Counted from the stretch's first letter, positions 1 to 15,766 are shown. The stretch: 64,000 nucleotides of DNA from Acidobacteriota bacterium (GCA_009840635.1 VXNL01000105.1:1-64000); one strand, 5' to 3'. Numbers and translations are program-made. Notes: generated by a model not told the origin, from the letters alone.

Positions 1-134
1 ACGGCTTGGAACGCCGGTCTCCAGACCGGCACCGCGGCGCTCCGCGCCGCGCACGGCGTAACCCCCATCCCGCCTGACGACGCGTACGGCTTGGAACGCC
101 GGCTTCAGCCGGCACAGCCCGCCGCAGGCGGGCG
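1..134. repeat. Cluster of GC-rich palindromic repeats
   Basis: Two copies of a module beginning ACGGCTTGGAACGCCGG lie at 1-17 and 86-102, each followed by a hairpin. The first stem is GCCGGTCT/AGACCGGC (14-31), the second GCCGGCT/AGCCGGC (99-114). A third hairpin, GCGGCGC/GCGCCGC, is at 33-50, and GCCCGCC/GGCGGGC at 117-134. Positions 88-115 are the exact reverse complement of a 28-base element found twice near 5.4-5.5 kb. No gene is seen in 1-167. Confidence 0.75.
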
Positions 135-993: not shown

Positions 994-1799
994 TGAAATC
1001 GGGAGTGCGGTCACGCCGAGCCGGCAGCGTGATTGCCGATCTTGCGGCCAAGGGTCGATATCACTTCACGGCGGCGGAGATCCGCCGGTTGCTCGGCGTT
1101 TCGCCAGCGGCGGCCAGACTCGCTCTCAGCCGGCTGGCGAACAAAGGACTGATCGCGAGTCCCGCGCGTGGTTTCTACGTGGTTGTGCCCCCCGAGTACC
1201 GGCGCCTCGGCTGCCTTCCGGCCGAGCAGTTCGTTCCGGCGCTCATGGCGCATCTCGACCGCCCCTACTACGCCGCGCTCCTGTCCGCAGCGCAGTTCCA
1301 CGGCGCCGCGCACCACCGTCCGCAAACCTTCCAGGTAGCGCTGGCCGGGTATCGCCGGCCAATTTCGTGCGGAAGGGTCGCCGTTTCCTTCATCACCCGC
1401 GCGCGCCTCGCCGAGGTTCCCACTCAGTCCTTCAATACACCGCGTGGGGCGATCCGCGCATCGAGCCTCGAGGCCACCGCGGTTGATCTGGTCGGCTACG
1501 AAAAACGCGTCGGCGGACTGTCGCAGGCGGCGACAGTCATCGCGGAACTCGCCGAGGACATCCACCCGGATCGGCTCGCCACGGCGGTGCGGACGGCCCC
1601 GGTTTCCTGGGCGCAGCGCCTCGGTTACCTGCTCGACCTCGTTGGCGCAGCCGACAAGACGTCGTCTCTCCAGCGCGACGTGCGCCAACGCGCCCACGAC
1701 CCCGTGCCGCTCGTGCCGGGCGTCCGCGACGAGGGTCGAGCACCGCGTGACCAGCGGTGGCGACTACGCATCAACGCCGAAGTCGAGGTGGAGACGTGA
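993..1799 (+). CDS. AbiEi-type antitoxin / transcriptional regulator
   Basis: 268 residues with an N-terminal winged-helix region (about residues 10-60), followed by the conserved body of type IV AbiEi antitoxins. In characterised AbiE systems the antitoxin represses its own operon and neutralises the AbiEii nucleotidyltransferase. Start choice: ATG 993 is preferred over an in-frame GTG two codons upstream because a -10-like hexamer lies just before it. No Shine-Dalgarno is visible, consistent with a leaderless message. The stop TGA overlaps the GTG start of the toxin gene (GTGA), so the two are translationally coupled. Confidence 0.82.
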   Translation: MKSGVRSRRAGSVIADLAAKGRYHFTAAEIRRLLGVSPAAARLALSRLANKGLIASPARGFYVVVPPEYRRLGCLPAEQFVPALMAHLDRPYYAALLSAAQFHGAAHHRPQTFQVALAGYRRPISCGRVAVSFITRARLAEVPTQSFNTPRGAIRASSLEATAVDLVGYEKRVGGLSQAATVIAELAEDIHPDRLATAVRTAPVSWAQRLGYLLDLVGAADKTSSLQRDVRQRAHDPVPLVPGVRDEGRAPRDQRWRLRINAEVEVET

Positions 1800-2611
1800 T
1801 CCCACGCGACTACATCACCGAGTGGCGAGCCCGGGCACCCTGGGTCCAGGACGCTCAGGTCGAGCAGGACCTGGTCGTCGCGCGGGCACTGGTCGCGCTC
1901 TTCTCCCAAGCGGCGGTGGCGAACGAGTTGGCGTTCCGCGGCGGGACTGCGCTCTACAAGCTCTATCTGACGCCGCCCGCGCGGTACTCGGAGGACATTG
2001 ATCTGGTGCAGACCACTCCCGGACCGATCGGCGAGGTCATGGACGGCGTGCGGGAGGCTCTGGATCCCTGGCTCGGCAAACCGAAGTGGAAGCAGACCGA
2101 AGCTCGCGTCACCTTCATCTATCGCTTCGCATCCGAGGATGCGCCGCCCTTGCGGCTACGCCTGAAGGTCGAGATCAGCTCGCGCGAGCACTACTCCGTG
2201 TTCGGGCTCGTGAGAATCCCGTTCACCGTAACGTCGCGCTGGTTCAGTGGAACCGCCGACATCGTGAGCTACGAACTTGATGAGCTCCTGGCCACCAAGC
2301 TGCGGGCGCTCTACCAGCGCAGGAAGGGCCGGGACCTGTTCGACCTCGCCACCGCGCTCGACCGAGGCGCCGTCAACCCCGCCCGCGTGCGGGAGGCGTT
2401 CGCGGAACATATGGCACGCACCGATGGTCCCGTAAGGCGCGCGATCTTCGAACGAAACCTTGCGGCCAAGGTTCGCGACCCGCAGTTCGCCGCCGACATC
2501 GGTCCCCTGCTCGCGCACGGCTACTCGTGGGATTTGGAAGCGGCGGCGCAGGAAGTCAGGACCCGGCTCATCTCTCACCTGCCGGACGCTCCCGGGAGGC
2601 GCCAGGACTAA
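1796..2611 (+). CDS. AbiEii/AbiGii-type nucleotidyltransferase toxin
   Basis: 271 residues. Residues about 42-65 contain FRGGTALYKLYL followed by SEDIDLV. These are the GG...K and S-DxD signatures of AbiEii/MenA-like nucleotidyltransferases, where the aspartates bind metal. Later K-RALYQRRKGRDLFDL matches the family's conserved lysine/RDLxD segment. Related toxins transfer nucleotides onto tRNA acceptor ends or block growth by an unresolved mechanism. The start is taken as GTG 1796, overlapping the antitoxin stop; an ATG at 1757 would overlap the antitoxin by 43 bases. The pair may act in phage defence or plasmid or island maintenance; this is known for the family, not shown here. Confidence 0.85.
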   Translation: MIPRDYITEWRARAPWVQDAQVEQDLVVARALVALFSQAAVANELAFRGGTALYKLYLTPPARYSEDIDLVQTTPGPIGEVMDGVREALDPWLGKPKWKQTEARVTFIYRFASEDAPPLRLRLKVEISSREHYSVFGLVRIPFTVTSRWFSGTADIVSYELDELLATKLRALYQRRKGRDLFDLATALDRGAVNPARVREAFAEHMARTDGPVRRAIFERNLAAKVRDPQFAADIGPLLAHGYSWDLEAAAQEVRTRLISHLPDAPGRRQD

Positions 2612-2642: not shown

Positions 2643-4697
2643 CTACTGCGGCTCGCCCAGGTTCACCGGCTCCGGGTCCACCAGCTTCACTGCCCAGAGG
2701 CCCGAGTGGTGGTCGGCGACGAAGATGTGGCCCTTGTAGGGCTGGGGGCCCCAGACCATCGGCGCGTTGGGGATGAAGCTCTCGGGGTCCTGCGGCCAGA
2801 AGACCGCGATCTCCCGTCCCTGGCGGTAGAGGTCGCCGCGCAGCTCGCCCGAGATGTCCACGACCCGCAGGCCCCCGTTGTAGTAGCCGATGTAGAGGAT
2901 GTCGTCCTCAACCCAGAGGTTGTGGGTCCCGGCTTCGGGCACCTGGTAGCGCGCCACCTCGCGGGCGTCTTCCCACTCGTCCCACTCGTAGATGTGGATC
3001 CAGCCGGCGGCCCGGTCGGGAGTGTCCGGCTCGCCGATCGTCTGGTAGGGGAACGCCTCGTCGCCCCCGATCATCAGGAACTTGCCGGTGGACTGGCTGC
3101 GGTAGGGGTAGGCGGCGTGGTTCCAGCCGCTCGGGTAGCGGGTTCGCCCCAGTTCGACCGGGTTGTTCGGCGCTCCGCCCATGCCGCCGCCGCCCACGTC
3201 CACGGCCACGATCCCGTCGTCCCAGTTGGACGAGTAGGCGATCCCGTCCACCACCCACACGTCGTGGATCGAATGTCCCGGTGTGTCCAGCTCGAAACGC
3301 CCCACCCGGTAGGGGTTCGTCGGGTCCTCGGCGTTCAGGATGTCGTAGCGGCGTCCTGCCGAGAGCGCGTAGATGTGGTCCTCCGCGATGAAGACGTTGT
3401 GGACGCCGCCGGTGAGCTGATCGTCGTAGCGGGCGATCACCTGCACCCCGCTTTGTGGATCGCTCACGTCGAGTATCACGAGGCCGTTCCGCCGGTTCGA
3501 AGCGCCCTCGCGGCTGATCACGCAGAACTGCGCGTCCTCCGAGACCTTCACGTCGTTCACCGTCCGGGCGTCCACCCGCACGGTATCGATGAGCGACATG
3601 GCGGAAGGATCGGTGACGTCCCAGAAGTAGGCGTGGCCGTCGGCGCCCCAGGTGCCGGTGACCGCGTAGTCCCGGCCGTCGACGCCCTCCCAGACCCAGA
3701 GGTCCGAGGTGTAGCGGTCGCGGACCGGGCCCTGCCCCACGATCTCGACGTCCTTTCGCACCTTCCGTGACGTCACCGCCACGGTGGCGCTCGCCGACGT
3801 CGTGAACCCGTCGGCGATCACCGTGTGGGTCCCCGAACGCTCGGCCACGAAGGCGCCGTCGGCGTCCACCTGCCCGATGGCGCCCGGCGCCACGATCCCG
3901 TCCGCCGGGACCCCGAGAGTCGCGAACTGGACCGGGTAGTCGGGGACCTCGTTCCCGGAGGCGTCGGTCACCTTCGCCTCGAAGAACACCACGTCGCCGG
4001 TACGGATCGCCTCCTCGGGCGCCCCGGTCAGCGTGATGGAGGCCACCGGATTGGCGAGCACCTCGATCAGGGTGTCGCTGGACGCCTCCTCGGCGGAGAC
4101 GGTGAGGGTCGTCCGTCCCGCTCCGGTCAGGGCAAGCGTCCCGAGAGCGTCCACGCTCGCCACCGACGAATCGGCGCTGCTCCAGGTCACCTCCACATCG
4201 CTCCGGACCGCGCCCGAGATGTCGGTGACCGTCGAGCGCAGCCCGATCTCGGTGCCCGCGTAGAGGTGTCCCGGCAGGTTGGCCACCTCCACGGTCGCCA
4301 CCGGCGGGTTGGGGATCGTCACCGGGATCTCGACCATCACCGCGGGCTCGGCCCGCCGGTCGGTGTCGTCGGGATCCTTCGGGACCATGGCGATCAGCGT
4401 GTGCTCGCCGGGCCGGAAGGCCTCCACGATGCCGGCGGGGTTGACGCCCACCGAGCGGCGGCGGCGCGAGAAGAAGACCACCGTGCGGTCCATGGCGTTG
4501 CCGTCCCCGTCGCGGACCTCGGCCTCCAGGGTCGCCGTCGATCCAACCTCGAGCGTCAGTTCGCTCGGGGTGATGACGAGTTCGGCGGGCTCGGGGCCGG
4601 TGGCCTCCTCGGCTTCCTCCTGCGCGAACGCCGGGAGGGCGAGGAGGAGTACAGCGACGGCCAGGATCAGGGAGCGGGAGCGAGAGGTTCGGGTCAT
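2643..4697 (-). CDS. Secreted Ig-like / LVIVD-repeat beta-propeller protein, paralogue 1
   Basis: 684 residues, about 75% identical by eye to three neighbours. Signal peptide at residues 1-24 (RSLILAVAVLLLALPAFAQ). Three Ig-like (bacterial Big-type) beta domains span roughly 35-150, 150-235 and 235-325, with motifs such as ITPSELTLEVGSTATLEAEV. A C-terminal propeller (about 330-684) is built of LVIVD-type blades, for example NGLVILDVSD and GLRVVDISGELRGD. Expected to act in the periplasm or outside the cell; the ligand is unknown. The start is the ATG that begins the signal peptide, although the frame is open about 300 bases further upstream. It is separated from the other three copies by a small plus-strand gene and repeats, so it has its own promoter region (4698-4871). 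Confidence 0.85.
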   Translation of the reverse strand: MTRTSRSRSLILAVAVLLLALPAFAQEEAEEATGPEPAELVITPSELTLEVGSTATLEAEVRDGDGNAMDRTVVFFSRRRRSVGVNPAGIVEAFRPGEHTLIAMVPKDPDDTDRRAEPAVMVEIPVTIPNPPVATVEVANLPGHLYAGTEIGLRSTVTDISGAVRSDVEVTWSSADSSVASVDALGTLALTGAGRTTLTVSAEEASSDTLIEVLANPVASITLTGAPEEAIRTGDVVFFEAKVTDASGNEVPDYPVQFATLGVPADGIVAPGAIGQVDADGAFVAERSGTHTVIADGFTTSASATVAVTSRKVRKDVEIVGQGPVRDRYTSDLWVWEGVDGRDYAVTGTWGADGHAYFWDVTDPSAMSLIDTVRVDARTVNDVKVSEDAQFCVISREGASNRRNGLVILDVSDPQSGVQVIARYDDQLTGGVHNVFIAEDHIYALSAGRRYDILNAEDPTNPYRVGRFELDTPGHSIHDVWVVDGIAYSSNWDDGIVAVDVGGGGMGGAPNNPVELGRTRYPSGWNHAAYPYRSQSTGKFLMIGGDEAFPYQTIGEPDTPDRAAGWIHIYEWDEWEDAREVARYQVPEAGTHNLWVEDDILYIGYYNGGLRVVDISGELRGDLYRQGREIAVFWPQDPESFIPNAPMVWGPQPYKGHIFVADHHSGLWAVKLVDPEPVNLGEPQ

Positions 4698-4871
4698 GGA
4701 GCGCGGTCCCTCCGTGCCGGGGAATATACGCCCGCCCGCCACTACTGCACGTTCGCTTCGACTTTTCCACATTCCTGGCCGAAGTGGGTCAAAACGGGCC
4801 GGGATTACGTCTATGTCCTCAGGGGAGGCGCTCCTGCTCAACGGACAGCCCTTCCCCAAAAGGAGTTCCCG

Positions 4872-5255
4872 ATGCCACCAGGCGCGCCGCAACCATCCCC
4901 AGGTGAACAGGAGACGTCTCCGCGAACGGGGGGAACCCCGCCACCGGGCAGGGACGATGCGAGACGGAAACCAGAGCCAAACGGCGCTTTGTTCCACACC
5001 CTGGTGAAGGCCGGATTCGAGCCTCAGGTGGCCTATACTGCGGAAAGGCGGATTCAGACCATGACCTCGGAGATCGCTGGCGACCGCGTGGAGTCGGTGC
5101 TCGCCGAAATCCGACAGATTCGCGAGCAGATGCAGGAGAACATGGTCACGAAGGCGGATCTGTCTGCCACCGAAACCCGGATTGTCAAGTGGATGTTCGG
5201 GGCGCTGATGGCTCAGGGGGCGTTCATCATCGCCGTCATCAAGCTGCTGGGCTGA
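4872..5255 (+). CDS. Small coiled-coil protein with C-terminal membrane anchor
   Basis: 127 residues. The first 40 are proline- and charge-rich. The middle (about 55-100) is a predicted coiled coil with heptad-like RVESVLAEIRQIREQMQEN. A hydrophobic C-terminal segment (about 107-125, GALMAQGAFIIAVIKLL) would anchor it. The layout resembles DUF1640/CCDC90-type proteins, including a KADL-TETRI-like stretch before the membrane segment. A good ribosome site (AGGAG, six bases before ATG) fixes the start. It is the only plus-strand gene within the paralogue array, and a hairpin with a T-run follows it. Function unknown. Confidence 0.7.
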   Translation: MPPGAPQPSPGEQETSPRTGGTPPPGRDDARRKPEPNGALFHTLVKAGFEPQVAYTAERRIQTMTSEIAGDRVESVLAEIRQIREQMQENMVTKADLSATETRIVKWMFGALMAQGAFIIAVIKLLG

Positions 5256-5297
5256 TCGCTGTGGCGGTCAGTCCGACGCGCCAAAAGGAAGTCTGAG

Positions 5298-5332
5298 GCG
5301 CCGCCGCTGCGAACGGCGGGGCGCGAGTTTTT
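5298..5332 (+). terminator. Putative intrinsic terminator
   Basis: GCGCCGCCG (5298-5306) can pair with CGGC and GGCGC (5314-5324) around a seven-base loop, with a two-base bulge. It is followed by TTTTT at 5328-5332. It lies 43 bases past the stop of the small coiled-coil gene and would end that transcript before the repeat cluster. Confidence 0.45.
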
Positions 5333-5517
5333 CGCCTCACTGCGTTCGGCGATGCCGGCCGGAGGCCGGCGCTCCGACGCTCCTTCCTCCCGAAGAGCGG
5401 CGGGCGGTGCCGGCTGAAGCCGGCGTTCCAAGCCCATGTGCCGCCAAGCGGAACAGTTATCCGCCATTCCGCTGCGCTGCGCGCAGCGGGTGCCGGCTGA
5501 AGCCGGCGTTCCAAGCC
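5323..5517. repeat. Repeat cluster between array genes
   Basis: This is the only content of the 307-base gap 5256-5562 besides the terminator. The 27-base element at 5351-5377 (hairpin CCGGC/GCCGG, ending GCTCCGA) recurs exactly at 32300-32326 and 50982-51008. A 28-base element starting GTGCCGGCTGAAGCCGGC and ending TTCCAAGCC occurs at 5407-5434 and 5490-5517, and inverted at 88-115. The region upstream of 5351 (TCGCC...GGCGA) forms the variable hairpin of the composite repeat. Confidence 0.8.
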
Positions 5518-5562
5518 GGAAGCGCCACCCGGTGGGCGGCGCTACGCGGCGTGGCCCCGCCC

Positions 5563-7617
5563 CTACTCCGGCTCGCCCATGTTGATGGGCTCCGGGTCCA
5601 CGAGCTTGACGGCCCAGAGGCCCGAGTTCATGTCGCTGAGGAAGATGTTGCCCTTGTAGGGCTGCGGTCCCCAGACCATCGGGGCGTTCGGAATCCGGCT
5701 CTCGGGGTCGAACGGGCGGAACATGGCGATCTCGCGGCCCTGCCGGTAGAGGTCGCCCCGCAGCTCGCCGGAGATGTCCACCACCCGAAGGCCGCCGTTG
5801 TAGTAGGCGATGTAGAGGATGTCGTCCTCCACCCACAGGTTGTGGGTTCCCGCTTCCGGCACCTGGTAGCGGGCCACCTCGCGGGCGTCGTCCCACTCGT
5901 CCCACTCGTAGATGTGGATCCAGCCGGCCGCCCGGCCCGGGGTGCGCTCGGCGCGCATGGTCTGGTAAGGGAACGCCTCGTCGCCGCCGATCATCAGGAA
6001 CTTGCCGGTGGACTGGCTGCGGTAGGGATAGGCCGCGTGGTTCCAGCCGCTCGGGTAGCGGGTCCTCCCCAGCTCGACGGGGTTGTTCGGGGCGCCGCCC
6101 ATGCCGCCGCCGCCGACGTCCACCGCCACCACGCCGTCAGACCAGTTCGATGAGTACGCGATGCCCTCGTGGACCCAGACGTCGTGGATGGAATGGCCCG
6201 GGGTGTCCAGCTCGAAGCGTCCCACCCGGTAGGGGTTCGTGGGATCCTCGGCGTTCAGGATGTCGTAGCGCCGCCCCGCGGACAGCGCGTAGACATGGTC
6301 CTCCGCGATGAAGACATTGTGGACGCCGCCGGTGAGCTGGTCGTCGTAACGGGCGATCACGGAGACGCCGTTCAGCGGATCGCTGACGTCGAGGATCACG
6401 AGCCCGTTCTTCCGGTTGGACGCCCCTTCGCGGCTGATCACGCAGAACATCCCGTCCTCCGAGACCTTCACGTCGTTCACCGTCCGGGCGTCCACGCGCA
6501 CGGTGTCGATCAGGGCGATCGCCGAGGGGTCGGTGACGTCCCAGAAGTAGGCGTGGCCGTCGGCGCTGTGGGTCCCGGTCACCGCGTAGTCGCGGCCGTC
6601 AACGCCCTCCCAGACCCACAGGTCCGAGGTGCGCCGGTCGCGCACGGGGCCCTGCCCGACCACTTCCACGTCCTTCCGGACGTTCCTCGGCACCACCGCC
6701 ACCGTGGCGCTGGCTGACGTCGTGAAGCCGTCGGCGATCACCGTGTGGGTGCCGGTGCGCTCCGCCACGAAAGCGCCCTCCTCGTCCACCTGGCCGATCG
6801 CGCCGGGCGCCACGATGCCGTCGGTGGGGACCCCGAAGGTCGCGAACTGCACCGGGTAGTCGGGCACCTCGTTTCCGGAAGCGTCCATCGCCGTCGCGGT
6901 GAAGAACACCACGTCGCCGGTCCGCACCGCGTCATCCGGCGTGCCGCTCAAGGTGATCGAAGCCACCTCGTTGGCGAGCACCTCGATGGCGGTGTCGCTC
7001 GACGCCTCCTCGGCGGAGACCGTGACGGTCGTCGCGCCGGCGCCCATCAGGGTGAGCACCCCGAGGGCGTCCACGCTCGCCACCGACGGATCGGAACTGC
7101 TCCAGCCCACTTCCACGTCGTTCCGGACGGCGCCCGAGATGTCGGTGACGAGGGAGCGGAGGCCGATCTCGGTCCCCGCGTAGAGGTGGCCCGGGAGGTT
7201 CACGAGCTCGACGGTGGCCACCGGGGGATTGGGAATGGTCACCGGGATCTCCACCATCACCGCGGGCTCGGCGCGCCGGGAGGTGTCCTCGGGATCCTTC
7301 GGCACCATGGCGATCAGGGTGTGCTCGCCGGGCCGGTAGGCCTCGACGATGCCCGCCGGGTTCACGCCCACCGAGCGCCGGCGGCGCGAAAAGAACACCA
7401 CCGTGCGGTCCATCGGGTTGCCTTCGGCGTCCCGGACCTCGGACTGGAGCGTCAGCGAGTCGCCGACCTCCAGTTCCACCTCGGACGGGGTGATGATGAG
7501 TTCGGCGGGCTCGGGGCCGGTCTCGGCCTCCTCTTCCTGGGCGAACGCCGGGAAGGCAAGGAGGAGAAGAGCGGCAGCCGCGGCGAGAGCGGTGTGGAGG
7601 TGCAGTTTTCGGTTCAT
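5563..7617 (-). CDS. Secreted Ig-like / LVIVD-repeat beta-propeller protein, paralogue 2
   Basis: 684 residues with the same architecture as its neighbours: signal peptide (residues 1-25), three Ig-like domains, then an LVIVD propeller containing HSIHDVWVHEGIAYSSNW and NGGLRVVDISGELRGDLY. It differs mostly in the Ig domains and in a short loop before the AAGWIHIYEWDEW motif (here TMRAERTPG). The start is the ATG at 7617, which opens a canonical signal peptide. It lies 34 bases downstream of paralogue 3 and probably ends a four-gene operon. The role is unknown; the domain mix suggests extracellular or periplasmic binding. Confidence 0.85.
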   Translation of the reverse strand: MNRKLHLHTALAAAAALLLLAFPAFAQEEEAETGPEPAELIITPSEVELEVGDSLTLQSEVRDAEGNPMDRTVVFFSRRRRSVGVNPAGIVEAYRPGEHTLIAMVPKDPEDTSRRAEPAVMVEIPVTIPNPPVATVELVNLPGHLYAGTEIGLRSLVTDISGAVRNDVEVGWSSSDPSVASVDALGVLTLMGAGATTVTVSAEEASSDTAIEVLANEVASITLSGTPDDAVRTGDVVFFTATAMDASGNEVPDYPVQFATFGVPTDGIVAPGAIGQVDEEGAFVAERTGTHTVIADGFTTSASATVAVVPRNVRKDVEVVGQGPVRDRRTSDLWVWEGVDGRDYAVTGTHSADGHAYFWDVTDPSAIALIDTVRVDARTVNDVKVSEDGMFCVISREGASNRKNGLVILDVSDPLNGVSVIARYDDQLTGGVHNVFIAEDHVYALSAGRRYDILNAEDPTNPYRVGRFELDTPGHSIHDVWVHEGIAYSSNWSDGVVAVDVGGGGMGGAPNNPVELGRTRYPSGWNHAAYPYRSQSTGKFLMIGGDEAFPYQTMRAERTPGRAAGWIHIYEWDEWDDAREVARYQVPEAGTHNLWVEDDILYIAYYNGGLRVVDISGELRGDLYRQGREIAMFRPFDPESRIPNAPMVWGPQPYKGNIFLSDMNSGLWAVKLVDPEPINMGEPE

Positions 7618-7651
7618 GGTTCGTGGCCTGTGCGGAGAGTAGGTGGCGCTG

Positions 7652-9709
7652 TCAGTGGGGCTCGCCCAGGTTGACGGGCTCCGCGTCAACGAGCTTCAGG
7701 GCCCAGAGCCCCGAGGTGTTGTCCGCGATGTAGATGTGGCCCTTGAAGGGCTGGGGTCCCCAGACGAACGGGGAGTTCGGCTTGACGGTCTCGGGGTCGT
7801 ACGGACGGAACGAGGCGATCTCCCGGCCCTGCCGGTAGAGGTCGCCGCGCATCTCGCCGGAGATGTCCACCACCCGCAGGCCGCCGTTGTAGTAGGCGAT
7901 ATAGAGGATGTCGTCTTCTACCCAGAGGTTGTGGGTTCCGGCCTCGGGCACCTGGTAGCGGGCCACCTCGCGGGGGCTGTCCCACTCATCCCACTCGAAG
8001 ATGTGGATCCACCCGGCGGCCCGGCGCCGGGCCCGCGGTCCCTCCATCAACTGGTAGGGGAATGCCTCGTCGCCGCCGATCATCAGGAACTTGCCCGTGG
8101 ACTTGCTGCGGTAGGGGTAGGCCGCGTGGTTCCAGCCGCTCGGGTACGGGGTGCTGCCCAGCATGACCGGGTTGTTGGGGGCGCCGCCCTGACCGCCGCC
8201 GCCCACGTCCACCGCGACGATGCCGTCGTTCCAGTTCGAGGAGTAGGCGATCCCGTCCGCCACCCATACGTCGTGGATGGAGTGCCCGGGGGTGTCCAGC
8301 TCGAAACGACCGACGCGATACGGGTTCGTCGGGTCCTCGGCGTTCAGGATGTCGTAGCGCCGGCCCGCCGAGAGCGCGTAGATGTGCTCCTCGGCGATGA
8401 AGACGTTGTGCACCCCGCCGGTGAGCTGGTCGTCGTAGCGGGCGATCACCTCGATGCCGTTCTGCAGGTCGCTGACGTCGAGGATCACCAGGCCGTTCTT
8501 CCGGTTCGAGGCGCCCTCCCGGCTGATGACGCAGAACTTCCCGTCCTCCGAGACCTTGACGTCGTTCACCGTCCGGGCGTCTACCCGCACCGTGTCGATC
8601 AGCGAGATCGCCGAGGGATCGGTGACGTCCCAGAAGTAGGCGTGGCCGTCGGCGCTGTGGGTGCCGGTGACGGCGTAGTCGCGGCCGTCGGTGCCCTCCC
8701 AGACCCACAGGTCGGAGGTGCGCCGGTCGCGGACCGGGCCGCGTCCCACGACTTCCACGTCCTTCCGCACGTTCCGGGAAACGACGGCGACCGTGGCGCT
8801 CGCGGAGTGCGTGAACCCGTCCACGATCACCGTGTGGGTTCCCGACCTCTCCGCCACGAAGGCGCCGTCGTCATCGACCTGGGCGATCGCGCCGGGCGCC
8901 ACGATCCCGTCCGCCGGGACCCCGAGGGTCGCGAACTGCAGCGGGTAGTCCGGCACCGCGTTCCCGGAGGCGTCCATGACCTGCGCCTCGAAGAACACCA
9001 CGTCCCCGGTCCGGACCGACTTGTCCGGCGCTCCGCTGAGGGTGATCGAGGCCACCGGGTTGGCGAGCACCTCGATGGCGGTGTCGCTCGAAGCCTCCTC
9101 GGCCGAGACCGTCAGCGTTGTCCGTCCGGCGCTGACCAGGGTGAGCGTCCCGAGGGAGTCGACGGCCGCCACCGACGGATCGGCGCTGCTCCAGCCGACC
9201 TCGACGTCATGCCGAACCGCCCCCGAGGTATCGGTGACCGTCGGACGCAGGCCGATTTCGGTATCCGTGTAGAGGTGGCCCGGCAGGTTCGCGACCTCGA
9301 CGGTCGCGACCGGCGGGTTCGGGATGGTCACCGGGATCTCCACCATGACCGCGGGCTCGGCGCGCCGATCGAGGTCCTCCGGGTCCTTCGGCACCATGGC
9401 GATGAGGGTGTGCTCGCCGGGCCGGTACGCCTCCACGATCCCCGCCGGGTTGACGCCGACCGAACGGCGGCGGCGCGAATAGAACACCACCTGCCGGTCC
9501 ATCGGGTTGCCGTCCCCGTCCCGGACCTCGGCCTCGAGCGTCAGCGAGTCCCCGACCTCGAGTTCGAGCTCGGACGGGGTGACGATGAGTTCAGCGGGCT
9601 GCGGACCGGCGTCCGCCTCTTCTTCCTGGGCGAGCGCGAGCCCCGGGGCCAGCGCGAGAGCGACACCGAACGCGATCAGCAGCCGCGTCCCTGGGTTCGA
9701 ATGCTTCAT
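7652..9709 (-). CDS. Secreted Ig-like / LVIVD-repeat beta-propeller protein, paralogue 3
   Basis: 685 residues: signal peptide (residues 1-27, with LLIAFGVALALAPGLALAQ), three Ig-like domains and an LVIVD propeller. The loop before GWIHIFEWDEW reads LMEGPRARRRAA, showing that this surface loop varies between copies while the blades are nearly fixed. The start at 9709 is the ATG of the signal peptide; the frame is open far upstream only because of GC-rich composition. It follows the YncE-like gene by 26 bases and precedes paralogue 2 by 34, which supports one transcript. Confidence 0.85.
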   Translation of the reverse strand: MKHSNPGTRLLIAFGVALALAPGLALAQEEEADAGPQPAELIVTPSELELEVGDSLTLEAEVRDGDGNPMDRQVVFYSRRRRSVGVNPAGIVEAYRPGEHTLIAMVPKDPEDLDRRAEPAVMVEIPVTIPNPPVATVEVANLPGHLYTDTEIGLRPTVTDTSGAVRHDVEVGWSSADPSVAAVDSLGTLTLVSAGRTTLTVSAEEASSDTAIEVLANPVASITLSGAPDKSVRTGDVVFFEAQVMDASGNAVPDYPLQFATLGVPADGIVAPGAIAQVDDDGAFVAERSGTHTVIVDGFTHSASATVAVVSRNVRKDVEVVGRGPVRDRRTSDLWVWEGTDGRDYAVTGTHSADGHAYFWDVTDPSAISLIDTVRVDARTVNDVKVSEDGKFCVISREGASNRKNGLVILDVSDLQNGIEVIARYDDQLTGGVHNVFIAEEHIYALSAGRRYDILNAEDPTNPYRVGRFELDTPGHSIHDVWVADGIAYSSNWNDGIVAVDVGGGGQGGAPNNPVMLGSTPYPSGWNHAAYPYRSKSTGKFLMIGGDEAFPYQLMEGPRARRRAAGWIHIFEWDEWDSPREVARYQVPEAGTHNLWVEDDILYIAYYNGGLRVVDISGEMRGDLYRQGREIASFRPYDPETVKPNSPFVWGPQPFKGHIYIADNTSGLWALKLVDAEPVNLGEPH

Positions 9710-9735
9710 CGTCGGTTCCTCCCCGCCAGCAAGCC

Positions 9736-10866
9736 CTACGGCTCGCCCTTCCAGTAGATGATGCCGCCGGCCTGCTTGCCGACGTCGATCTCGGAGACGC
9801 GCTGGGTGGTCGCGATGTCGTACACCTCGACCGTCCCCGGCTCGCCGCCGACCCCTTCGAGGGTCACGATCGCGTAGCGGTCGTCGTCCGAGACCACCAC
9901 GCCGTGCGGCACCCGCCGCGTGGTCTCCGGCGCCGCGATCAACTCGCCGCTCGCCAGATCCCAGAAGCCGAGCTTCTTGCCGGACTTGTAGGTTGCGATC
10001 ATCACGGCGCCGTCCGAGGTGAGCTCGATGTTGTAGGGGTTCTCGCCCGGGCCGGCGTCGAACCGCCGGGAGACCTCCCATCCCTCGAGGTCCACCTCGT
10101 AGATGGCGCTGTCGCCGTTGCCGGCCACGTACACCTTGCCGGCCGGCGAGGGCTTGGTGGCCCAGGTGGGCTTCACCACCGGCATCCGCATGCCGCCCAT
10201 GTCGCCGTGGTCCATGCCGGCGTGTCCGGCATGGGGGTCGGTCCCGAGATAGAGGCGCCGCGCGATCTCGAAGCGCATGGTGTCCACCTCGACGAGTTCG
10301 TCGTCCATCATGTTCACCGAGTAGAGCCGGTCGCCCTTCGCGTTCATCCGCGCGCCGTGCGGCATGACCCCGGTGTCGATGGTGGCCACCTCGATCATGG
10401 TCCCGGTCTCCACCACCGAGATGGTGCTCGGCACGTGGTCGCCGTGGAGGTTGAAGTTGACGACGTAGAGCAGCCCGGTGCTCGGCGAGACGTCCATCGT
10501 CGCCGGGAACAGGCCGAGGGTGACGTCTCCGAGCCACTCGTTGGTCCCGGTCTCGTACTTGTGCACGGTGCCGAAGGGCATGCCGTGGGCGATGGACAGG
10601 AACCAGTAGCTCCCGTCGGGCGAGATGTTGATCCCGTGCGGACCCTCGGTCTCCGTCGGGAAGGCGCCGACCGGGATCACGTCGAGTTCCTCGAACCCGC
10701 TCGGGCCGTAGCGGAGCAGATGGACGGTGTCGTCCGACTCGGCGCAGACGTACACGAAGTAGTTGCGTCGCGGCGGCTCGGGGTCCTCCGCGGCCGCGAA
10801 CGGCGCGAGGCCCAGCCCGAAGAGAAGCGCGGACGCCGCCAGGAGGCGGGGACGGCGGAAAGACAT
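9736..10866 (-). CDS. YncE/YVTN-family secreted beta-propeller protein
   Basis: 376 residues with a signal peptide (residues 1-26). The rest is a YVTN-type propeller with repeats such as HGINISPDGSYWFLS, TMDVSPSTGLLYVVNFN and IYEVDLEGWEVS. Between two blades, residues 211-230 form a His/Met-rich loop (PHAGHAGMDHGDMGGMRM) of the kind that binds copper or other soft metals; this use is inference. Its ATG overlaps the stop of paralogue 4 (TAATG), so the two are translationally coupled, which ties this protein functionally to the Ig/LVIVD proteins. Confidence 0.82.
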   Translation of the reverse strand: MSFRRPRLLAASALLFGLGLAPFAAAEDPEPPRRNYFVYVCAESDDTVHLLRYGPSGFEELDVIPVGAFPTETEGPHGINISPDGSYWFLSIAHGMPFGTVHKYETGTNEWLGDVTLGLFPATMDVSPSTGLLYVVNFNLHGDHVPSTISVVETGTMIEVATIDTGVMPHGARMNAKGDRLYSVNMMDDELVEVDTMRFEIARRLYLGTDPHAGHAGMDHGDMGGMRMPVVKPTWATKPSPAGKVYVAGNGDSAIYEVDLEGWEVSRRFDAGPGENPYNIELTSDGAVMIATYKSGKKLGFWDLASGELIAAPETTRRVPHGVVVSDDDRYAIVTLEGVGGEPGTVEVYDIATTQRVSEIDVGKQAGGIIYWKGEP

Positions 10867-12923
10867 TACTGCGGTTCTCCCATGTTGCGCGGGGTCTCCG
10901 GATCGACGAGCTTGACCGCCCATAGACCCGAGTTGAAGTCGGAGAAGAAGATGGTGCCCTTGAACGGCTGCGGGCCCCAGACGAAGGGGGCGTTCGGCTT
11001 GAAGCCGTCGGGATCGGCCGGCTCGAAGAAGGCGATCTCGCGGCCCTGCTGGTAGAGGTCGCCGCGCAGGTCCCCGGAGACGTCCACCACCCGGAGGCCA
11101 CCGTTGTAGTAGCCGACGTACATGATGTCGTCCTCGATCCAGAGGTTGTGGGTGCCGGCCTCGGGCACCTGGTAACGGGCGACCTCCCGGCCTTCGCCGG
11201 TCTCTTCATCCCACTCGCCGATGTGGACCCAGCCCGCGGCGCGGTCGGGCAGCTTGCCCTCGGGGTCGAAGCCGAAGGGGAAGTTCTCGTCGCCGGCGAA
11301 GACGAGCATCTTCCCGGTGGACTGGCTCCGGTACGGGAAGCCGGCGTGGTTCCAGCCGTTCGGGTACTTGAAGCTGCCCATCATCACCGGGTTGTTGGGG
11401 GCGCCGCCCATGCCGCCGCCCCCGATGTCCACCGCGACCACCCCGTCGGTCCAGTTCGAGGACCAGGCGATGCCGTCCTGCACCCAGACGTCGTGAATGC
11501 TGTGGCCCGGGGTGTCGAGTTCGAAACGCCCCACCCGGTAGGGGTTCTCCGGATCCTCGGCGTTCAGGATGTCGTACCGCCGCCCGGCGGACAGCGCGAG
11601 GATGTGGTTCTCGGCCACGAACGTGTTGTGCACCCCGCCGGTCAACTGATCGTCGTAGCGGGCGATGATCTTCACGCCGTCGGTGGGGTTCGCGACGTCG
11701 AGGACCACCAGCCCGTTCCGCCGGTTGGAGGCCCCTTCCCGGCTGATGACCGCGAACTTGCCGTCCGGCGAGACCTTCACGTCGTTCACCGTGCGGGCGT
11801 CCACCCGGACGGTGTCCACCAGGTGGATGCTCGTCGGATCGGTCACGTCCCAGAAGTAGGCGTGCCCGTCGGCGCCCCAGGTTCCCGTGATCGCGTAGTC
11901 GCGGCCGTCGAGGCCCTCCCAGACCCACAGGTCCGAGGTGTGCCGGTCGCGGACCGGGCCACGGCCCAGGATCTCCCAGTCCTTCCTGATGTCGCGCGAG
12001 ACGGCGCGGATCGTCTCGCGGGCGGTCAGGGAGCCGCCCGCCGCGACCACCGTGTGCAGTCCCGGCCGTTCCGCCACGAAAGCGCCGTCCGGTTCCACGA
12101 ACGCCGCGGCACCCGGCGCCACCAGCGTGTCGGGGGTCCGGGTGGAAACCGCGTACTGGACGGGGAAGTCCGGAACCGCGTTGCCGCCGGCGTCGAGCGC
12201 GCGCGCTTCGAACCAGACCACGTCCCCGGTGCGGACCTCGGTCTCGTTCGCGGAGATCTCGAGACGCACGGCCGGGTTGGCGCTCACCGAGATCGCCACG
12301 TCCCCGCTCACCGACTCGGAGCTCGCCGAGATCGTGGCCGAGCCTTCGTCTTTCAGCATGAGCACCCCGTGCTCACTGACCGTCGCCACCGAGGAGTCGC
12401 TCGACGACCAGGAGAAGTCAGGTCTCCGCTCGGCCCCGGAGGTGTCCGTGGCCACCGCAGTGACCCGGAGGGAGGTGCCGGTGTAGAGATTCGCGGGGAG
12501 CGCCGCAACCTGCACGCTCGCGAGCGGCGGATACGGCACGGTCACCGGGATCTCGACCATCAGCGCCGGCTCGGCGCGGCGGTCCATGGCCTCCGGATTC
12601 GCCGGCACCATGGCGATCAGGGTGTGCTCGCCGGGACGGTGCGCTTCCACCATTCCCGCCGGGTTCACCCCCACGTAGCGCCGGGCGCGCGAGAAGAACA
12701 CCACCCCGCGCTCCAGTTCGTTGCCGGCCGCGTCCCTGACGGTCGCGTTGAGCTGCGCGGTCGTTCCGACCTCGAGCGTCAGTTCCGGCGGATCCACCAC
12801 GAGTTCCACCGGATCCTGCGCCTGGGCGGACCCGGCGAACAGAATCCCGGCGCACGCGAGCGCGCCAAGGAGCACCAGCCGGTCAGAACGCCTGCCGGCA
12901 GAAGAACGAGTCATCTTTACCAT
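10866..12923 (-). CDS. Secreted Ig-like / LVIVD-repeat beta-propeller protein, paralogue 4
   Basis: 685 residues and the most diverged of the four. Signal peptide (about residues 1-36), three Ig-like domains (for example VVDPPELTLEVGTTAQLNATV) and the same LVIVD propeller with NGLVVLDVANPTDGV and NGGLRVVDVSGDLRGDLY. The Ig domains have changed much more than the propeller. The start is taken as ATG 12923, with AGGAGG 12-13 bases upstream; a second ATG at 12914 is possible. It is the first gene of a probable operon (paralogue 4, YncE-like, paralogue 3, paralogue 2). The 98 bases up to the next gene would hold any promoter. Confidence 0.85.
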   Translation of the reverse strand: MVKMTRSSAGRRSDRLVLLGALACAGILFAGSAQAQDPVELVVDPPELTLEVGTTAQLNATVRDAAGNELERGVVFFSRARRYVGVNPAGMVEAHRPGEHTLIAMVPANPEAMDRRAEPALMVEIPVTVPYPPLASVQVAALPANLYTGTSLRVTAVATDTSGAERRPDFSWSSSDSSVATVSEHGVLMLKDEGSATISASSESVSGDVAISVSANPAVRLEISANETEVRTGDVVWFEARALDAGGNAVPDFPVQYAVSTRTPDTLVAPGAAAFVEPDGAFVAERPGLHTVVAAGGSLTARETIRAVSRDIRKDWEILGRGPVRDRHTSDLWVWEGLDGRDYAITGTWGADGHAYFWDVTDPTSIHLVDTVRVDARTVNDVKVSPDGKFAVISREGASNRRNGLVVLDVANPTDGVKIIARYDDQLTGGVHNTFVAENHILALSAGRRYDILNAEDPENPYRVGRFELDTPGHSIHDVWVQDGIAWSSNWTDGVVAVDIGGGGMGGAPNNPVMMGSFKYPNGWNHAGFPYRSQSTGKMLVFAGDENFPFGFDPEGKLPDRAAGWVHIGEWDEETGEGREVARYQVPEAGTHNLWIEDDIMYVGYYNGGLRVVDVSGDLRGDLYQQGREIAFFEPADPDGFKPNAPFVWGPQPFKGTIFFSDFNSGLWAVKLVDPETPRNMGEPQ

Positions 12924-13021: not shown

Positions 13022-14074
13022 CTACCAGATGTCCCCGACCGTGAACCCCTCGGGGAAGGGATCCCCCGGATCCACGGAATACTGCGCCGTCCCGGTGATC
13101 CAGGCGGTGCCGCTGATCGTCGGCACCACCGCCGGAACCCCGCCCACCGTGGTGGTGCGGATCAGCCGCCCGATGAACTCGGTGCCGACCGGACCGAGGT
13201 GGTGGAAGTCCTCGCCGATCCCGAGCAGGCCGCGGGCGTGGAGCGCCGCCATCCGCGCCGAGGTGCCCGTCCCGCAGGGCGAGCGGTCGAGCGCCCCGGT
13301 CCAGGTCTCGGGGCGGTCCCAGTCGAGATCGCCGACCGCGACGGATACGGCGTTCGCGGCGGTCCGCGTTTCCGGATCGAAGGGACCGGTGAGCTGTCCG
13401 ATGCTCGCCTGCCGGATCTCGGGGTTTTCGGGATGCACGGCCTCGAGTTGCTCGCGCGCCGCCTGCTTCACCATCGCCCCCACCCGCGCCAGCTCGCGCC
13501 CGTGCTCCGGGACGATGCGCAGTCCGAAGCGGGCGGCGTCCGCGATCGCGTAGAACATCCCGCCCCAGGACACATCCACCTCCACCTCCCCGAAGGTCGG
13601 CACCTCGACCTTCGCCCCGAGGTGGACCGGAAAGGCGGGAACGTTCTCGAAGGTCACCCGGGTGACCTTGCCGCCCTCCACGCTGGCCTGCACCTGGATC
13701 AGTCCGGCGGGCGTGTCCAGGGTGAGTTCGGTCACCGGCTCCACCGCCGCCACCATGCCGGTCTCGATGAGCGCGGTGACCGTGCAGATGGTGTTCGTCC
13801 CCGACATCGGGGGGTACTCGGTCTGCTCCATGATCACGAACCCCGCGTCGGCGTCGGGATGCGTCGGGGGCAGCACCAGGTTGCAGTTCGCGGCCGGGTA
13901 TCCGCGGGGCTCCCGGAGCATCAGCTTTCTGAGCCCGTCGGCGTGGCGCTCCAGGTACTGCATCTTCCGGAACATCGTCTCGCCCGGCACGTCGAGGACG
14001 CCCCCGACGATGACCCTCCCGGGCTCGCCGGCGGCGTGCAGGTCCACCGCCTGGATGAGTCGCCTTGAGCGCAT
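13022..14074 (-). CDS. Proline racemase-superfamily enzyme (proline racemase / hydroxyproline epimerase-like)
   Basis: 350 residues covering the full family fold. The second catalytic cysteine is present at residue 267 in DRSPCGTGTSAR. The first catalytic position, usually cysteine in MCGHG, is serine 91 in PPMSGTNTICT. Family members interconvert proline or 4-hydroxyproline stereoisomers, or dehydrate trans-3-hydroxyproline. Variants with a changed first residue are known, so the exact reaction cannot be assigned. The start ATG has AGGAAG nearby, and the gene follows the UnbV-type gene by only nine bases, so the two are probably co-transcribed. Hydroxyproline use would suit a collagen-rich or sponge/animal-derived habitat, but no catabolic partners are in the window. 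Confidence 0.8.
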   Translation of the reverse strand: MRSRRLIQAVDLHAAGEPGRVIVGGVLDVPGETMFRKMQYLERHADGLRKLMLREPRGYPAANCNLVLPPTHPDADAGFVIMEQTEYPPMSGTNTICTVTALIETGMVAAVEPVTELTLDTPAGLIQVQASVEGGKVTRVTFENVPAFPVHLGAKVEVPTFGEVEVDVSWGGMFYAIADAARFGLRIVPEHGRELARVGAMVKQAAREQLEAVHPENPEIRQASIGQLTGPFDPETRTAANAVSVAVGDLDWDRPETWTGALDRSPCGTGTSARMAALHARGLLGIGEDFHHLGPVGTEFIGRLIRTTTVGGVPAVVPTISGTAWITGTAQYSVDPGDPFPEGFTVGDIW

Positions 14075-14083
14075 CGTTTCTTC

Positions 14084-15766
14084 CTAGTTGCTTTCTTCGA
14101 CGACGAGGAACGTCCCCGGTCCGTCCACCGGAACCCCTTGTTCGGCTCCCGTTGGCCAGCGCACCCTAACCGAATCGGGAACGCCCGGGAGCAACCCGAT
14201 CCACACCTCCCGGGCGCCGGACGAGAGGTAGCTCGACCCGGCGGTGACCACCGACCGGCTCGGCTGTCCGCCCCGCTCCACCACCACCTCGGCGCCGACG
14301 CCGTCGCGGTTGGACGCCCGTCCGACCAACCGCAACGCCGCCCGCGGAGCCGGGTCGCCGCCGTTCCTGAGCAGCGCCGGGGTTCCGCCGGATCGCGAGA
14401 CCGCAAGATCGAGGAGGCCGTCCCGGTCGAAATCGACCGTCACCAGGCCCCGGCCGACCGCCGGGGGCAACTCCAGCACGACCGGCTCGAACGAACCGCC
14501 CAGATTGCGGAAACAGACGTCCCGCTGGCGGTAGTCCGTTCCGGGAAAGAGGACCGGCGCGTTGTCGAGGACGTGGCCGTTGGTGACGCACAGGTCCGGC
14601 GCGGCGTCGTTGTCGAGATCGGCGAAGACGGCCCCGAAGCCCAGCCAGTCGAGCGACGGCCGCCCCACCCCGGAGAGGAAGGAGACGTCACGGAACACGC
14701 CGTGCCGGTCCGACACGTAGAGGTTGTTCGCTTCGCCCTGGAAGTTCGTGACGAAGAGGTCGACGTCCCCGTCGGACTCGATGTCCGCCGCCGCGATCCC
14801 CATGCCGGCGAGCGCGTTCCCGTCCCCGTCGTAGGCGACGCCGGCGGGGAGACCCCGTTCGCGGAACCGCAGCCCTCCCAGGTTCTCGAAGAGGAAGTTG
14901 GGCACCGTGTCGTTCGCCACGTAGAGGTCGGGAAGCGGGTCGCCGATCAGGTCGGCGGCGAGGACGCCGAGCCCCTTGCCAGTCCGGAGGCCCACCCCGG
15001 CGGCCTCGGTCACGTCGGCGAACGAACCGTCGCCGCGGTTCTCGTAGAGCAGGTCCGGCACTCCCGAGAAGGCGTCGGGGAGGCAGTAGGAACGTACGGA
15101 CTCGCCGCCGATCGTCCGGGCGCACAGCGGGTTGTTCGCCGGGGACCAGTCGAGATAGTGGGTGATGAAGAGATCGAGGTCGCCGTCCCCGTCGAGGTCG
15201 GAGAAGGCGGCGCTCGCGCTCCAGCCTGCCGCGTTCAGTCCCGCGTCCCGCAGCGTGAACGTGCCATCTCCCCGGTTCTCGTAGAGCAGGTCCGTTCCCG
15301 CCCGGGTGATCAGCAGGTCGGCGTCCCCGTCGTTGTCGACGTCGGCGGCGACCGCGCCCATACCGTAACCCTCCACCGGGGCGGGCGCTCCGAATCCGGC
15401 CGCCTCACTCACGTCCCGGAAGCGCCCGTTCCCTTCGTTGCGGTACAGCGCGCCCACGAGTCCCGGCGGCCGGCCGGTCCCCGGCACCTCCCCGCCCTGC
15501 ACGAAGAAGAGGTCGGGCGCCCCGTCGCCGTCGTAGTCGAGCACGGCCACGCCGGACCCCATGGTTTCCACCGGATGCCATTCGCCCCGGGCGCCCCGTT
15601 CGTGCCGGAAGGAGACGCCGGCCGCCTCCGCAACATCGCGCAGGACGATCTGCGCAGATGCGGACGAAGCCGGCAGGACCAACGCAAGGAATCCCACTCC
15701 CAGACCTGGCGCACCCGGGCCGCAGAACGGTCGTCTCGGTCCCCGTCCCGGGCCGTTCATCCGCAT
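14084..15766 (-). CDS. Secreted FG-GAP repeat protein with ASPIC/UnbV C-terminal domain (CRTAC1-like)
   Basis: 560 residues with a signal peptide (about residues 1-38). At least seven FG-GAP/VCBS-type calcium-binding repeats follow, with DYDGDGAPDLFFVQ, DVDNDGDADLLITR, DLDGDGDLDLFITH, DIESDGDVDLFVTN, DLDNDAAPDLCVTN and DFDRDGLLDLAVSR. The last ~80 residues match the ASPIC/UnbV domain, ending in LLPGVPDSVRVRWPTG. Such proteins form integrin-like beta-propellers on the cell surface or in the periplasm; their ligands are mostly unknown. Transcribed just ahead of the proline racemase-like gene. Confidence 0.88.
   Translation of the reverse strand: MRMNGPGRGPRRPFCGPGAPGLGVGFLALVLPASSASAQIVLRDVAEAAGVSFRHERGARGEWHPVETMGSGVAVLDYDGDGAPDLFFVQGGEVPGTGRPPGLVGALYRNEGNGRFRDVSEAAGFGAPAPVEGYGMGAVAADVDNDGDADLLITRAGTDLLYENRGDGTFTLRDAGLNAAGWSASAAFSDLDGDGDLDLFITHYLDWSPANNPLCARTIGGESVRSYCLPDAFSGVPDLLYENRGDGSFADVTEAAGVGLRTGKGLGVLAADLIGDPLPDLYVANDTVPNFLFENLGGLRFRERGLPAGVAYDGDGNALAGMGIAAADIESDGDVDLFVTNFQGEANNLYVSDRHGVFRDVSFLSGVGRPSLDWLGFGAVFADLDNDAAPDLCVTNGHVLDNAPVLFPGTDYRQRDVCFRNLGGSFEPVVLELPPAVGRGLVTVDFDRDGLLDLAVSRSGGTPALLRNGGDPAPRAALRLVGRASNRDGVGAEVVVERGGQPSRSVVTAGSSYLSSGAREVWIGLLPGVPDSVRVRWPTGAEQGVPVDGPGTFLVVEESN

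Follow-up and report, generated by a model that had tools for sequence, protein, structure and literature searches.

The stretch of DNA analysed here (the window, 64,000 nucleotides from an Acidobacteriota genome of 3.58 Mb) carries a run of four genes for paralogous Ig-LVIVD propeller proteins, denoted c1 to c4, together with a gene for a YncE/YVTN-like propeller, to which we refer as the partner. The coordinates originally predicted for the four paralogues proved correct, and every gene lies on the minus strand. The genes and the loops considered below are as follows.

10866..12923, minus strand: c4, Ig-Ig-Ig-LVIVD propeller protein, 685 aa; leading gene of the presumed operon and most diverged copy
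11238..11288, minus strand: paralogue-specific B5-C5 loop of c4
9736..10866, minus strand: YncE/YVTN-like partner of 376 aa, a propeller with 7 blades; signal peptide of the Sec type as judged by eye
10171..10251, minus strand: His/Met-rich loop joining D3 to A4 in the YncE-like protein (YLGTDPHAGHAGMDHGDMGGMRMPVV), residues 206-232; putative metal-binding loop
7652..9709, minus strand: c3, Ig-Ig-Ig-LVIVD propeller protein, 685 aa; 26 nt after the YncE-like gene
8018..8068, minus strand: paralogue-specific B5-C5 loop of c3
5563..7617, minus strand: c2, Ig-Ig-Ig-LVIVD propeller protein, 684 aa; 34 nt after c3
5929..5979, minus strand: paralogue-specific B5-C5 loop of c2
2643..4697, minus strand: c1, Ig-Ig-Ig-LVIVD propeller protein, 684 aa; 865 nt from c2
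3009..3059, minus strand: paralogue-specific B5-C5 loop of c1, residues 547-563

Transcription runs from c4 through the YncE-like gene, c3 and c2 to c1. The TAATG overlap reported at the first junction is real, the TAA stop of c4 and the ATG start of the partner gene having one base in common. Since the next two gaps are only 26 and 34 nt long, compared to 865 nt between c2 and c1, it is plausible from spacing that c4, the partner gene, c3 and c2 constitute one operon, and c1 is probably on its own transcript; a short plus-strand ORF lies inside the 865-nt interval. Elsewhere in the genome, more distant Ig-LVIVD copies are present on two contigs (C34 and C13), contig-end fragments on two others (C84 and C10), and a single second YncE-like gene on yet another (C45).

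Several neighbouring features deserve mention in their own right. An AbiEi/AbiEii-type toxin-antitoxin pair (1029-2611, plus strand) adjoins c1, and homologues of this pair adjoin c1 in several genomes of the same genus. Directly upstream of c4 is a proline racemase family gene, possibly encoding a hydroxyproline epimerase (13022-14074, minus strand), whose position is kept within the genus and not beyond the family. Upstream of it lies a gene for an FG-GAP/ASPIC-UnbV protein, another likely exported propeller (14084-15766, minus strand). A REP-like palindromic repeat, GGAACGCCGGCTTCAGCCGGC, occurs three times in the window (93-113, 5409-5429 and 5492-5512) against 0.04 expected, and 172 exact copies are found genome-wide versus none for the reversed control.

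All four Ig-LVIVD proteins indeed have the common architecture that had been proposed for them, in which a signal peptide (an ordinary AxA/SPI type, as read by eye) and three Ig-like domains precede an LVIVD propeller, all within a length of 684-685 aa. In Pfam searches Big_2 and LVIVD exceed their cut-offs and Big_1 matches weakly; for LVIVD (PF08309) the four scores are 31, 31, 26.1 and 23.6 bits, with a gathering score of 20.2. The AlphaFold2 model of c2 (pLDDT 85.7) has a propeller of seven blades in addition to the three Ig-like domains. A search by fold for a specific solved relative returned only generic Ig strings and WD40 propellers. The propeller is the part common to the choice-of-anchor B family (TIGR04312), which is matched by all 26 Ig-LVIVD homologues; however, c1-c4 score 55-75 bits, below the family cut-off of 100 bits. 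Unlike the LVIVD and TIGR04312 families, they combine three N-terminal Ig-like domains with a linked YncE-like partner and, unlike choice-of-anchor B proteins, show no anchor at their C-termini by eye. As neither a lipobox nor a C-terminal anchor or sorting signal is visible in c1-c4, and the signal peptides are ordinary, the suggested role as a surface system is not borne out. The LVIVD repeat itself was described in 2004 (PMC2447325), and an LVIVD/PQQ-domain protein is among the genes upregulated in Methanosarcina during direct electron transfer (PMC6315138).

Five histidines of the LVIVD propeller (H433, H478, H527, H568 and H592) are kept in 70-71 of 71 homologues. Overall, the top-face loops of this propeller show no clear excess of conservation over the bottom loops: the values are 0.73 and 0.75, respectively, and 0.78 without the variable loop. 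Some distant Ig-LVIVD matches (L074 8843-10876, and those in G100, G088, G060, G306 and G554) contain one in-frame stop within the extended match, representing perhaps true ends or pseudogenes.

The expectation that the propeller is far more conserved than the Ig domains holds against c4 and fails among the other three copies. Pairwise identities between c1, c2 and c3 are nearly equal in the propeller (86-90%) and the Ig region (81-88%), so that equal divergence of all domains is nearly what we find for these three. It is not what we find for c4, which shares with the other copies 75-78% identity in the propeller, 67-72% in Ig1 and 46-53% in Ig2 and Ig3. A plainly higher conservation of the propeller is thus restricted to comparisons with c4 or among distant paralogues. 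The four copies evolve under purifying selection, with propeller dN/dS of 0.13-0.36 in every between-copy comparison. The tree resolves one genus-wide group per copy, supported at 1.0 for c1, 1.0 for c2, 0.95 for c3 and 1.0 for c4, where the values for c3 and c4 take in members of the wider family, and orthologues of each copy are 90-98% identical within the genus. The copies are old paralogues that make up separately conserved orthologous groups. We rejected rapid diversification or positive selection in view of the low dN/dS and the loops being fixed inside orthologous groups; the label "diversified" is thus not supported if it stands for variation that is rapid or of an antigenic type, as each copy, including its loop, is almost invariant across species of the genus. 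In one genome (G004; c3 from 10804 and c2 from 12908 in L063), c3 carries the c2 loop because the two genes are 100% identical in DNA over codons 540-600, compared to 80-93% in other genomes. This tract looks like gene conversion from c2 to c3, an assembly error of the MAG being the alternative.

The loop preceding the GWIHI-EW motif does differ in each copy, as had been noticed, with 21-57% identity between c1-c4. DSSP assignment of the AlphaFold2 model places it between propeller strands B5 and C5, on the face that, given propeller topology, also bears the D-A loops. Fixed differences among c1-c3 affect 64% of the loop's 14 positions versus 14% of the whole propeller, and the loop sequence is fixed inside each orthologous group and different between groups. 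In three tandem pairs from another phylum, Neomarinimicrobiota (G491, G527 and G564), the 15-residue windows with the lowest identity in the propeller fall on the same loop, at 7-24% identity, and in two of these genomes (G527 and G564) the loop retains 62-76% identity to its orthologues. Independently in two phyla, this loop is the propeller's most divergent stretch between copies. That one loop diverges repeatedly and is then conserved points to the B5-C5 loop as a specificity element.

The association of Ig-LVIVD proteins with the YncE-like partner extends well beyond this locus. In a survey of the class (60 relatives and the host genome itself, the partner being counted at E<=1e-30), the partner and strong Ig-LVIVD matches were present in the identical 18 of 61 genomes, adjacent in all of them. 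A phylum-wide sample revealed Ig-LVIVD in 36 of 396 Acidobacteriota genomes. Thirty of these had not been seen in the class survey; the partner is present in 28 of them, including all 25 whose completeness is 90% or more, and the two genomes without it are 71-72% complete. In Candidatus Neomarinimicrobiota (the phylum of L026), Ig-LVIVD was found in 14 of 149 genomes, with the partner directly downstream in 14 of 14, whereas it was present in 0 of 6 genomes without Ig-LVIVD; one additional genome of this phylum (that of L027) carries the pair. Altogether, the partner occurs in 61 of 63 Ig-LVIVD genomes (48 Acidobacteriota, 15 Neomarinimicrobiota) and is adjacent in 56, so the predicted linkage is genuine, and its absence beside these genes in all relatives is clearly false. 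In the remaining five genomes the two genes lie within 5 kb of each other (G068, G083) or elsewhere in the genome (G306, G367, G075). Four arrangements are seen, namely, LVIVD followed by YncE, YncE followed by LVIVD, convergent (G032, G271, G292) and divergent (G034, G038); flanking genes are wholly different between families, and the pair is present in closed single-contig genomes (G032, G226). Clustering the neighbours of about 40 loci revealed neither a constant third gene nor a copper or redox gene as a constant neighbour.

Because the linkage survives such rearrangement, it provides strong evidence for shared function, even if related genomes do not count as independent cases. The genuine unit comprises two genes, one for an Ig-LVIVD and one for a YncE-like protein, and from the recurrence of this pairing in two bacterial phyla the two proteins very probably work together. 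Several LVIVD copies per YncE-like gene arose separately in the two phyla, and the host genome also has solitary LVIVD paralogues with no adjacent partner (on C34 and C13).

The partner is modelled by AlphaFold2 as a 7-bladed propeller (pLDDT 85.9), and its best PDB match by both sequence and fold is the archaeal YVTN surface-layer protein 1l0q. Fold and repeat type are thus those of YncE/YVTN propellers, and the gathering score of PF21783 is marginally exceeded (27.7 vs 27.1 bits); the E. coli-type YncE equivalog (NF052280) is not reached (19 vs 400 bits). All 17 of 17 partner homologues match in part the propellers of the Clade III lactonase-type nitrous-oxide reductase (NF052460) and the hydrazine synthase beta subunit (NF052340), for which the partner itself scores 48 vs 700 and 40 vs 560 bits with the propeller aligned in part only. 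With scores under the cut-offs, we rejected membership in both L-NosZ (NF052460) and the YncE equivalog. SBP56/methanethiol oxidase (PF05694) was likewise discarded, since only one distant homologue matches it, at 15.5 vs 34 bits. What sets the partner apart from YncE/YVTN proteins is a His/Met-rich D3-A4 loop and the invariant motifs EGPHG, AHGxPxG, PHGxR and MM. Matches of the YncE-like protein reach lactonase and virginiamycin lyase folds, and both propellers have invariant Asp, Glu, Arg and His, as would be expected of a metal-independent exported enzyme (lactonase, lyase or isomerase) acting on the propeller face, with copies differing in substrate. We regard such an enzyme as quite unlikely, however, as the lactonase and lyase family matches are partial and under cut-off and the His/Met-rich loop would be left unexplained.

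This loop, located between blades 3 and 4, consists of 19% His and Met compared to 5% elsewhere (38 homologues, 1176 loop residues). Its sequence evolves fast and its composition is kept, as exemplified by MNHEAMNHEAMNHG and HSGHKMKKMDHSKMNMGGM. Extreme His/Met repeats are seen in the YncE-like loops of L128 8988-10244 and L148 3893-4972 (MNHEAMNHEAMNHG; MKKMDHSKMNMGGM). Of the 38 homologues, 37 retain H77, and the same number holds for H94, H170, H321, M186 and M187. As H77, H170 and H321 begin the innermost strands of different blades and H94 and M186/M187 reside in B-C loops, strand register indicates that these residues can lie on the same side as the His/Met-rich loop. Taken together, the invariant His/Met residues and the loop composition suggest that the partner binds a metal, probably copper. 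Of the 38 YncE-like proteins, 10 contain a motif of the MDHxxM type, as opposed to 0 of 611 other neighbouring proteins. Copper-resistance proteins CopA/PcoA carry Met/His-rich repeats, and the partner's motif is presumably of this type. The likeness is limited to the short motif, for the partner has neither a multicopper-oxidase domain nor linked copper genes. Some genuine members (G010, G012, G023, G049 and the G133 copy) lack the loop or have only a poor version of it, so that it is not essential everywhere; given loop-less members such as those of G023 and G049, it may serve in metal loading or storage and not be the site itself. Mere sequestration of copper or silver for resistance, by a periplasmic metal sponge for which the Ig-LVIVD copies are scaffolds, would account for the His/Met-rich loop but strikes us as improbable: the most conserved features, structured propeller residues and a copy-specific loop, are needless for it, and the lack of any constant neighbour among about 40 loci means that copper-resistance genes are not linked either.

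A further possibility, albeit a doubtful one, is ligand binding or adhesion that involves no metal chemistry. The Ig stalk and propeller would bind a polymer, host or particle surface, the loop would set the ligand, and the YncE-like protein would act as co-receptor in the way that BtuG-type propellers do for TonB transporters. Hits of the Ig-like domains to Big_2 and Big_1, and weak ones of the invasin and Lig types, speak for this, as does the resemblance of the YncE-like model to BtuG and to surface-layer propellers. The named relatives are Acidobacteriota MAGs, and one from the same genus bears an isolate name of the jk18x series, used for MAGs of the sponge Ircinia (PMC9531527), from which it follows that the genus includes sponge-derived members. 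Yet the module is no sponge-only trait, being widespread in Acidobacteriota (the 36 of 396 genomes) and Neomarinimicrobiota. Moreover, adhesion makes the invariant His and the His/Met-rich loop superfluous, among the neighbours of about 40 loci we recognised neither a TonB transporter nor an anchor that was constantly present, and rapid evolution is absent.

Our preferred reading, held tentatively and at somewhat less than an even chance, is that of an exported two-propeller metalloprotein module, in which a shared metal-binding partner serves several specificity-tuned Ig-propellers. Both propeller proteins would be exported to the periplasm or beyond the cell. The YncE-like protein would bind a transition metal, most likely copper, held via the His/Met-rich loop beside the invariant His and Met. 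The Ig-LVIVD proteins would be its working partners, presumably in physical contact with it, each an Ig stalk holding a second propeller with an invariant His set of its own, and the B5-C5 loop would tune recognition by each copy. In this Acidobacteriota family, one partner gene may serve up to four old specialised copies. A bolder version, which we consider unlikely, is that the two interacting β-propellers form an undescribed copper-dependent exported enzyme system conserved across both phyla, with one metal-handling propeller for several Ig-stalked ones, each of which has its substrate set by a single exchangeable loop.

The fold families are the known part of this system. New are the association of the two genes, found in both phyla, the organisation of several copies around one hub, and two loops with a candidate function. 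The original statement that the role of such a system had not been described, as far as was known, agrees with the literature searched, where no paper joins LVIVD and YncE and "choice-of-anchor B" comes without a paper. Both propellers belong to families with no settled function, and each now gains a partner and a putative active face. Two further candidates, a loop for metal binding and a loop for specificity, come with natural replicates in the form of independent duplications in two phyla. Thereby two orphan folds become one testable system.
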